Part shown: piece after piece, positions 24,825 to 46,518 of the stretch
How the letters are laid out: each line of letters opens with the position of its first letter
Numbering within the stretch: the first letter of the stretch is position 1
DNA from: Bacteroides sp.
Lineage (GTDB): Bacteria; Bacteroidota; Bacteroidia; Bacteroidales; Bacteroidaceae
Direction: 5' to 3'
Assembly: GCA_021201335.1 (NCBI GenBank)
Contig: JAJQFD010000042.1
Coordinates: 310,001-374,000 of the forward strand
Length of the DNA stretch: 64,000 nucleotides
Translations under genes and position numbers: made by a program
Notes under the pieces: generated by a model
What the model saw: the letters and a program-made list of their open reading frames with translations, nothing else
What the model was told of the DNA's origin: nothing
The model's database searches: none

Positions 24825-24890
24825 ATGCTACCGGGATGTGCTTTAAATGTTACCGGAATCCGGTGCTAATGCAATCGGCATTTAATCCAA
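24825..24890. repeat. 22-bp-period tandem array, family A (3 units)
   Basis: ATGCTACCGGGATGTGCTTTAA / ATGTTACCGGAATCCGGTGCTA / ATGCAATCGGCATTTAATCCAA; exact 22-bp spacing. Confidence 0.85.
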
Positions 24891-24940
24891 AACCCGATAG
24901 CTTTCGTACACGCTTCAAGCGGAATAAATGAATCATTCCT

Positions 24941-43384: not shown

Positions 43385-44647
43385 TTACCACACCCATACC
43401 TGCGGCTCATCTTTCCACAGCAATAATCTGAAAACTTCATAGTGATCACCATTCCCGATGGTGTGGGTATCTCTGTGTCCTTTTCCCAATTGAAGTTTAT
43501 GCAACATACCGGAATAAGAACCCACCCAAAGTGTTTTCTCGTCATCGGAAAGGGTCATTCCACTGATAGTTGACCCCAAAAAGTGCCTCCAAATCTTTTT
43601 TCCGCTTTTATCGAAAGCCTTAATATATCCATAAGCATCTCCCAATATATAATAATCCGATGTGGCAACTCCGGCGTATATTCTCATTTCTTCGTCAATG
43701 ACCACATAATCATCGCTTTCCTCATAAGGTTCAATGATGGCTCCATCCAGTTTATCTCTGTCTACCCCAATGGTAATGCCATTGTAGAAATGGCAAGAAT
43801 TGGTTATTAGCTGGCTGTCATCTTTCGAAAATAAACAGAAATGAGGGTAGGATGATTGCGGGCCAATGGAACCCAGCTCTTCACCATCGAGGTTTAGAAT
43901 CCGATGTTCAGAACACTGATCAGCCACTACAATATACTGGTTCTTATGGTCCATCGTTCCATTCTCCATGTCCAAATAATGATCGGGGTCTTCCTCTTCT
44001 TCCAGTTCGTTCCAGTCAATATCCGGGTGTATCAGTTTCTCTTCCTGATCAAGCAGATAAATTCCTTCTGAACTAACCACCAGCACTTTACTGCCATCAT
44101 TAAATGGAATAAGCTCTGTAATTCCCTCTTCGGCCAATTTATAGAGGGTAAATTCATTCAATAATGGACCTTCCCAACCTTTATAAACAGCCACTTTATC
44201 TTGCCGGACAACAGCAAAAATATTCCCTTGTTTGGATTTTCCAACGGCACGAATGGAATCATCCAGTTCTGTAACCTGATTGCCATCCAGCAAATATGCC
44301 TGTCGGGTTTCATAAGAAGCACCTGTGAGAAAAACGATTTTCTCCTCTTCAATAAAATAGAGTTGTGTGATGGACTGCGACTTATTATCCATAAATCTGA
44401 CCATCGGTGCATGGGACGGTGGGAAGTCTTTCCGAAATTCATCTACCCTATTTTCCAGGTTAGCTTCCTTCAGAAGATCAAATACTCCTTCGGCTAAACG
44501 TTCTCTTTTCTCCTGAGGTTCTTTCCCTTTCCATTTATCCCAGCCGTTTTCTTCGGCGAAGGCCACCATTTCATTAATGGATTGGGCATACTTTTCGCCT
44601 TCCTCATACCACTGCTTCTGTAGGTTTGCTCGATTCGTCTCTTTCAT
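43385..44647 (-). CDS. Cytoplasmic beta-propeller-like (WD/PQQ-like) protein
   Basis: Repeated blade-like segments (DKSGKKIWRHFLGSTISGMTLSDDEKTLWVGSYSGMLHKLQLGKG). Confidence 0.65.
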   Translation of the reverse strand: MKETNRANLQKQWYEEGEKYAQSINEMVAFAEENGWDKWKGKEPQEKRERLAEGVFDLLKEANLENRVDEFRKDFPPSHAPMVRFMDNKSQSITQLYFIEEEKIVFLTGASYETRQAYLLDGNQVTELDDSIRAVGKSKQGNIFAVVRQDKVAVYKGWEGPLLNEFTLYKLAEEGITELIPFNDGSKVLVVSSEGIYLLDQEEKLIHPDIDWNELEEEEDPDHYLDMENGTMDHKNQYIVVADQCSEHRILNLDGEELGSIGPQSSYPHFCLFSKDDSQLITNSCHFYNGITIGVDRDKLDGAIIEPYEESDDYVVIDEEMRIYAGVATSDYYILGDAYGYIKAFDKSGKKIWRHFLGSTISGMTLSDDEKTLWVGSYSGMLHKLQLGKGHRDTHTIGNGDHYEVFRLLLWKDEPQVWVW

Positions 44648-44768
44648 AATTAATTTGTTTGGCGGTTAAAATTAGTAATTTATCCATTAATTAACCTAAT
44701 AATTGTTTATTAAACTTTATTTACCCGGAATTAGCTGAGAGAAATTACTCCATTCGTATTTATTTCGG

Positions 44769-44856
44769 ATGCTACCGGCATTTGTGTCCAATCCTACCGG
44801 AATCCGGGTCGGATGCAACCGGGATTTGAATCGAATGCTACCGGAATTTCTTCGTT
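44769..44856. repeat. 22-bp-period tandem array, family A (4 units, second location)
   Basis: ATGCTACCGGCATTTGTGTCCA / ATCCTACCGGAATCCGGGTCGG / ATGCAACCGGGATTTGAATCGA / ATGCTACCGGAATTTCTTCGTT; exact 22-bp spacing. Confidence 0.88.
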
Positions 44857-44910
44857 TGGAAAATAGGATGCTTTGCTTTAGCTTTGCAAACATAAAAGCA
44901 AACTCTGTGC

Positions 44911-46518
44911 ATGATTAAAGACAAGCTACGTTTCATCTTTCTGCCGTTCTTCCTTTGCGCCATCGGAATATTAATCGGATATACCTTTCTGCATTGGTTG
45001 CTTATTATCCGGCTGGACTTGTTTCAACCCCAAGAAATTTACCTGGAGTTTGTATTTCCCGGTATCATTTGCACACTCATCGGCTGCTTTTATCTCCGAA
45101 GGAAAATTAAACTGTTTTATAATCCGCGTCCACATGATTTCTACACCATACTATGTGTAATGGGTTTATTGGTTCCTACCATGATTGCTCAAAGCTACCT
45201 GATGAAGCAACAAGGCCGTCTGATTGAAATGGATACACCGGATAAAATTGATTCGCAACATCAGGTGAAATATTATTCCATCGAGAATTCCGTTATTCCC
45301 AAAGCAGCTACGGGAGCTTACGTCAGCAGAAGCAATGCCGACAGGCATGGAAATAAAATTATGATAACCGTTTATTTTGTAACTCCCCTCTTAACAAATC
45401 CCGATTTGGGAGAGTTGCACACCCACAATAACTGGATTGCAACTTCGTTTAAACGAAAGTTCTCCAATACGGCTTTCGACGATAAAGAAATACAAAAAAA
45501 AGAAATACAAGAGTTTATAAACGAAGCCTTTTTCAAATTCGAGCGATATCCCTTTACTACCAAATACCTTGTAAATCTTCGGACAGATAACAACTGGAAT
45601 CACTACTTGTCGGCAGCGCAAAATTCAAATCATTATGTAGGGAAAGAAAACATTGTGATTCTCGAAGAAATCATCGGAGAATATGAAACCCGAACCGGAA
45701 ATAGCTTTGTCTGGATTTTCCGTTCGCTGGCCATTGCGAATCTTATCTGGTTACTGATTACACTTTTTACCCCTGTATTCGAAGGAGACATGAGAATATA
45801 CCGTTTGCCAGCCAGTGAGAAAAAAACGCTTTATACCAAATTTACGGTTAACTGGAGGTCTTTGTACTCTCTCAAATTTTATTGGGCTACTTCTTCCATT
45901 ATCTTTGTCAACATAGTGGTATTTATTCTTCTCTTATTCGATGGTATTGACCTGTCGTCTCCCCAGGCAGACGAATTAATAAAATGGGGAGCTTCCTTCG
46001 GTCCGCTTATCAGAGAAGGAGAATGGTGGAGGCTGTTTACCTGCATATTCCTACATGCCGGGGTTGTTCATCTGGTGTACAATATGTTGAGCCTGGCTCT
46101 GATTGGGTGGTTTACAGAAAGGGAAGTCGGGAGTTTCCGGTTTTTCCTTATTTACCTGCTAACCGGGATAGCGGGTAGTTATTGCAGCTTTCTGTTTCAC
46201 GAATCGACAGTTAGTGTAGGGGCATCCGGTGCCATATTCGGTATGTATGGACTGGGAGCAGCTTTATCGATCAACCGGTATTTCAGCAAAGATACGATTG
46301 GGATACTCCTTCTCTTCGGTCTTCCTTACATGGCTATCAATCTGATTTATGGTTTATTGGTATCCGATATTGATATGTCTGCCCATTTGGGAGGAATGGC
46401 TTGCGGGTTTGTAATCGGACTGCTGTTTTTCTCTTTCCGAAAGAAAAGAATTTATTACAGAAAAATTATTGATCGATACCTGTATTCCTCATTACGAATA
46501 AAGAACACAAACCCATAA
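44911..46518 (+). CDS. Rhomboid-family intramembrane serine protease with large N-terminal extension
   Basis: FTCIFLHAGVVHLVYNML, VSVGASGAIFGMYGLGAAL (GxSG), SAHLGGMACGFVIG. Confidence 0.92.
   Translation: MIKDKLRFIFLPFFLCAIGILIGYTFLHWLLIIRLDLFQPQEIYLEFVFPGIICTLIGCFYLRRKIKLFYNPRPHDFYTILCVMGLLVPTMIAQSYLMKQQGRLIEMDTPDKIDSQHQVKYYSIENSVIPKAATGAYVSRSNADRHGNKIMITVYFVTPLLTNPDLGELHTHNNWIATSFKRKFSNTAFDDKEIQKKEIQEFINEAFFKFERYPFTTKYLVNLRTDNNWNHYLSAAQNSNHYVGKENIVILEEIIGEYETRTGNSFVWIFRSLAIANLIWLLITLFTPVFEGDMRIYRLPASEKKTLYTKFTVNWRSLYSLKFYWATSSIIFVNIVVFILLLFDGIDLSSPQADELIKWGASFGPLIREGEWWRLFTCIFLHAGVVHLVYNMLSLALIGWFTEREVGSFRFFLIYLLTGIAGSYCSFLFHESTVSVGASGAIFGMYGLGAALSINRYFSKDTIGILLLFGLPYMAINLIYGLLVSDIDMSAHLGGMACGFVIGLLFFSFRKKRIYYRKIIDRYLYSSLRIKNTNP

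Follow-up and report, generated by a model that had tools for sequence, protein, structure and literature searches.

The four-unit array at 44769-44856 belongs to a dispersed, non-coding, intergenic repeat family of a real, lineage-restricted kind, whose units keep an exact 22-bp step throughout the genome. It was found in the window, i.e., the whole 64,000-nucleotide stretch of Bacteroides sp. DNA analysed here, which comes from a genome of 5.0 Mb in 62 contigs (G000). A sequence-only reading of the window had described four contiguous units between divergent genes. Their sequences and coordinates are exactly as it quoted them, the flanking open reading frames do start at 44647 (minus strand) and 44911 (plus strand), and the observation was right and understated. 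We interpret the family, with what we consider an even chance of being correct, as GTAG-tagged REP-like elements that are new to Bacteroides and whose units follow one another head to tail at a fixed 22-bp spacing, not mainly as inverted dimers. The relevant features of the window are:

43385..44647, minus strand: left neighbour gene, 420 aa
44769..44856, plus strand: four-unit 22-bp array with cores CTACCGG, CTACCGG, CAACCGG and CTACCGG in a single orientation
44769..44790, plus strand: unit 1, ATGCTACCGGCATTTG + TGTCCA, 0 mismatches to consensus
44791..44812, plus strand: unit 2, ATCCTACCGGAATCCG + GGTCGG, 3 mismatches, exact core
44813..44834, plus strand: unit 3, ATGCAACCGGGATTTG + AATCGA, 1 mismatch
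44835..44856, plus strand: unit 4, ATGCTACCGGAATTTC + TTCGTT, 1 mismatch
44855..44886, plus strand: putative Bacteroides-type promoter of the rhomboid gene, abutting the array (TTTG at 44855-44858, 20 bp, TAGCTTTG at 44879-44886)
44911..46518, plus strand: right neighbour gene, rhomboid-domain membrane protein (PF01694)
24825..24903, plus strand: second array, with plus units at 24825, 24847 and 24869 and a flipped unit at 24888-24903 (minus strand) on the 22-bp centre lattice

Tandem Repeats Finder, which is independent of our unit search, reported a 22-bp array of 3.9 copies without indels at 44765-44849. The left neighbour gene has no Pfam match. The Bacteroides promoter consensus is TTTG/TAnnTTTG, and the putative promoter of the rhomboid gene was called by eye against this consensus.

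A 16-mer allowed up to three mismatches has nine matches in the window, while shuffled sequences gave 1.87 +/- 1.47 and none of 100 shuffles reached nine. Seven of the nine fall in two arrays, four at 44769 and three at 24825, to which the flipped unit at 24888 should be added. This second array, also announced by the sequence-only reading, is located directly downstream of yqeY and its terminator-like hairpin.

The same reading would have been refuted by a unit confined to these two places, but the unit is far more widespread. Scanning of G000 with the 16-mer gave 407 matches at up to three mismatches (101 for the reversed control pattern) and 125 single-unit matches at up to two (2 for the control pattern), and the 22-bp tandem pair CTACCGG-15-CTACCGG occurs 82 times against 2 in the control. 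Spacing was evaluated without assuming a period: for 43 units with at most one mismatch, the best neighbour was sought 16 to 44 bp away, on both sides and in either orientation. Fifty-six neighbours were detectable, 55 of them at exactly 22 or 44 bp and one at 21, whereas shuffled flanks yielded 1.2 detections in total. The exact period noticed in the window is thus a genome-wide property. Orientation is flipped in 8 (at most 11) of the 56 neighbours, and the centre-to-centre lattice is still kept.

The core CTACCGG is constant across lineages. Since it reads CCGGTAG on the reverse strand, it carries a GTAG tag. Its CTAC agrees with the reverse complement of the tag motif GT[AG]G, with the main variation at T5 (T 0.85, A 0.13); these frequencies are biased upward, as the units were picked with up to two mismatches. 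Neighbouring unselected units have C 0.75, T 0.67, A 0.76 and C 0.71 at the CTAC positions. The number of cores is nearly fixed within a species. Four lattice positions are commonest in G000 (28 of 46 arrays) and in a second Bacteroides genome, G110 (10 of 14), while 13 of the 16 arrays of a third, G108, have five. All nine arrays read in G363, which belongs to a different family of the same order, have four cores. The exceptions include an array with six cores (L154) and one with three near-identical units (L138).

In G108, every spacer position has its own sequence, which is common to the copies, and the elements share the ends TTTTATC...GATAAAA. The spacers differ more within one array than the same position does between arrays. 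These position-specific spacers and shared ends indicate that an element spreads in one piece. The orientation of the first G108 core varies from copy to copy between identical flanks, the core being either CCGGTAG or CTACCGG, so that it has been flipped in place. The G000 element has a polarity, as its last core is often CTACCG[CT]CT. Outside the arrays the flanks carry almost zero information, so that the array ends are sharp. No target-site duplication signal is present (4.5 observed, 4.8 in shuffles). Both the lack of duplication and the near-zero flank information are as expected of Y1 elements.

No leader or tail common to the short-form G000 arrays was found in the flank information. 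A subset of G000 elements runs into a conserved non-coding tail of about 300 nt, seen at about a dozen sampled intergenic loci (L012, L021, L023, L063, L188, L192, L194, L202 and others) and containing repeated AGTCTCATACTTT words. As this tail is limited to a subset of G000, a larger sequence carried by all arrays was rejected. G108 arrays at L137, L150, L152, L154, L155 and L158 adjoin a second tandem repeat, a degenerate one built on the motif CTATATAGC with a step of roughly 24 bp, which in some cases belongs to a longer repeated intergenic segment (up to ~340 bp). At L151 of the same genome (about 790-900), a GATACAAAAGTGCCACAGG-like tandem repeat with steps of about 24 bp is located just upstream of the 22-bp array.

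The spacers between the cores form lineage-specific complementary arms. Their consensus is nATTTGnnnCAAATG in G000, GATAAAnGCTTTATC in G108, CATTCGnTTCAAATG in the fourth Bacteroides carrier G109, CAATTGAnnnAAATG and a second type, CAAACnnnnTGTTTG, in G110, and GTTTGCGCGCAAAC-like in G363. Over the six outer spacer positions, pairing is 0.57-0.83 for arms of one lineage and 0.44 for arms exchanged between lineages; therefore, at the lineage level, the core stays while the arms change together. The second G110 spacer type (CAAAC...GTTTG) is combined with the CTACCGG core and the 22-bp step at C107:67363-67435, C118:41781, C56:14202 and C11:72785, so that this genome contains both arm types. Predicted single-strand DNA folds are better than shuffles in all four Bacteroides carriers, the mean z being -1.7 in G000, -5.0 in G108, -6.6 in G109 and -1.7 in G110. 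No such advantage over shuffles is seen for the window array itself (z -0.59 and -0.39), suggesting that the palindrome has decayed at this locus. Covariation within lineages is weak or absent. Only G108 gives a signal, and a modest one (overall z 2.9), so covariation was rejected as a proof of the hairpin.

Among 160 Bacteroides genomes, the two-unit pattern reaches high counts in just four: G000 (85), G108 (103), G110 (31) and G109 (19). Two of these carriers, represented by the G109 and G110 material, are Bacteroides sp. 51 and Bacteroides sp. 224. A search of 394 genomes of the order added one further standout, G363, with 176 CTACCGG pairs at 22 bp against 0 in the control; each G363 array combines four CTACCGG(TA) cores, spaced at 22 bp, with different arms. 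A signal from G370 in the same search did not hold up on the pair count. The viral contigs, plasmids and phages searched contain no match to the family, and a phage or plasmid origin was rejected. The species distribution is patchy. A single gain in one clade was not supported either, since a small FtsZ+YqeY tree nests the non-carrier G111 inside the G000-G110-G109 group; in this tree G108 is an outlier with a long branch.

An array is present in the homologous intergenic region beside yqeY of both G000 and G110, while the 12 other genomes compared have none there, so some sites may be old. Three further loci apparently have arrays in both G000 and G110, in a comparison where most of the sampled loci were picked because they bear arrays.

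According to the gene calls of a simple and crude codon-based caller, one scored G000 array is inside a predicted open reading frame and the family is otherwise intergenic. Convergent gaps, which make up about 17% of the insertable intergenic length, hold 18 of 41 intergenic arrays in G000; divergent gaps hold 6. Arrays lie a median of 73 bp from gene 3' ends and a median of 200 bp from 5' ends. The sequence-only reading had proposed to look near gene starts or ends, and in G000 it is mostly the 3' ends that are found there. It had also stressed the divergent placement, which is true of the window array but atypical, only six G000 arrays, this one among them, being divergent. G110 contrasts with G000 in having 6 of 13 arrays in divergent gaps.

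The family is alike to GTAG-tagged REPs, BIMEs and REPINs (PMC3733652, PMC2817692, PMC3116915) in its GTAG-type tag beside what is probably a short palindrome, its unit of about 20 nt, its extragenic location and high copy number, the clustering with some opposite units, the patchy lineage-specific families, a preference for convergent gaps and the 3' ends of genes, and the occurrence of Y1 transposase genes in the genome. It differs in that its arrays are mainly head-to-tail on an exact 22-bp lattice with four or five fixed cores, that the palindrome lies between consecutive tags, and that no Y1 gene is flanked by units. Classical GTAG REPs favour inverted (HH/TT) dimers (PMC3733652), whereas neighbours here have the same orientation in 198 cases and a flipped one in 27. 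The sequence-only reading, whose interpretation as a whole is partly supported, knew of no named element of this kind. Rfam has no family on the arrays at the seven loci searched, including the window array (L005), its two matches, Bacteroidales-1 and FopS, being located outside the arrays; on the other hand, the anatomy of GTAG-tagged REPs fits in most respects. We found no report of a high-copy GTAG-tagged repeat family in Bacteroides in the open literature searched.

The tag and palindrome anatomy makes RAYT/Y1 transposases the suspects. The Pfam family PF01797 (Y1_Tnp) has 3, 4, 4 and 4 matches in the four carriers and at least three in just one of the 156 other Bacteroides genomes, a correlation confounded by the shared ancestry of the carriers. 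A Y1 transposase flanked by units was sought with PF01797 in the 160 Bacteroides genomes and by reading the surroundings of each of the 15 genes in the carriers: no 22-bp unit lies within about 420 bp of any of these 15, and each is accompanied by other repeats. The two Y1 loci of G363 have no core in their flanks either. A REPtron, i.e., a cognate RAYT/Y1 gene flanked by the repeat, was thus seen at none of these 15 carrier and two G363 loci; REP-bearing species may be without REPtrons (PMC3733652). At G000:C19:426360-426632 (L052), a decayed Y1 gene with two stops has a two-core array about 350 bp upstream, which is compatible with chance.

Most carrier Y1 proteins have YI.NQ.EHH-like motifs resembling that of Y1 subclass 1.2 of the IS200/IS605 family (YIKNQKEHH), which was described from Cyanobacteria and Bacteroidetes and has no known REP partner (PMC6006769). 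The carriers' genes with such motifs (G000:C27:13035-13379 and G108 and G110 loci; L123, L125-L128, L132-L135) have long flanking palindromes of their own, unrelated to the 22-bp units.

Under the REP-like reading, an element would consist of four (in some species five) CTACCGG copies at exact 22-bp steps and would spread as a whole unit. The ~15 bases between the cores would form a short palindrome whose arms differ by lineage, insertion would occur into intergenic DNA, mostly beside gene 3' ends, and single cores would flip in place within the palindrome, leaving the spacing unchanged. Single-stranded hairpin-plus-GTAG units may be recognised and copied in trans, now or formerly, by a Y1 (HUH, IS200/RAYT-like) transposase; core flips could come from template switching within the palindrome, and effects on neighbouring transcription would be secondary. 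By analogy, the arrays appear to work most like GTAG REPs. We do not claim mobilisation by a RAYT, because head-to-tail order dominates, the lattice is rigid, the number of cores is fixed and no transposase gene flanks the units. The lack of a Y1 gene beside the units, the confounded Y1 correlation, the weak covariation, a window array that folds no better than shuffles and the head-to-tail order count against the REP-like reading itself.

A protein-binding lattice remains a serious rival because the window array folds no better than shuffled DNA, even if we consider it rather unlikely. A regulator or nucleoid protein would occupy each palindromic site, contacts across the 22-bp step (about two helical turns) would select the spacing, and dispersal would result from selection or site duplication. 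This agrees with a spacing far better kept than the sequence, with core flips that keep the centre-to-centre lattice, and with a core that does not change from lineage to lineage, even in a different family of the order. However, the whole-element copies of G108, with their position-specific spacers and shared ends, resemble copying rather than repeated site evolution, the G000 placement near 3' ends and between convergent genes is unlike that of operators, and the species distribution is patchy. A further proposal, which we also hold to be doubtful, is that of phased elements across Bacteroidales: the exact 22-bp step and the core number would be selected, a single dedicated protein assembly would bind or cut four or five CTACCGG sites at once, and the spacer palindromes would be free to change in a compensating fashion, with cores flipping in place.

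A third reading, which is improbable, takes the arrays for miniature inverted-repeat elements that depend on a conventional DDE transposase for their movement, as proposed for BrickBuilt; the 22-bp units would then be internal filler. Dispersed copies, the near-palindromic ends TTTTATCC...GGATAAAA in G108, and longer composites (an array plus the ~300-nt tail in G000, arrays beside the second tandem repeat in G108) speak for it, but there is no target-site duplication signal, the short forms are without a common leader or tail, and no transposase was noticed beside the arrays in an unsystematic look at the flanking genes. BrickBuilt, a MITE of Porphyromonas gingivalis (PMC4596501), is similar in its Bacteroidales host, dispersed intergenic elements and tandem repeats of ~22-23 nt; it differs in its unrelated 23-nt repeat AGAYCATARTATCCTCTCRTRTG, its variable copy number, and a leader and tail with terminal inverted repeats. 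Our arrays have another sequence and another period than AGAYCATARTATCCTCTCRTRTG, and the short G000 forms have no leader or tail. An ordinary minisatellite grown in place by replication slippage would account for the tandem form and the occasional extra units (L154, L138), yet it is very hard to reconcile with a core number almost fixed at four or five per species, with G108 spacers that differ more within an array than by position between arrays, and with the presence of the 22-bp unit at many unrelated loci; we give it hardly any credence. Iterons of a replication origin are unlikely, as dozens of chromosomal intergenic copies do not fit them.

Overall, this work adds a high-copy GTAG-tagged repeat family to Bacteroides. 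Its fixed core number and rigid 22-bp head-to-tail lattice are not predicted by the current inverted-dimer models of REP spread. The invariant core with compensating arms, which four Bacteroides species share with a different family of the order, is a handle for finding the recognising protein. Many genes, yqeY and other core genes among them, have an array beside them; the arrays may therefore influence promoters or the ends of transcripts, and they could also serve as strain markers.
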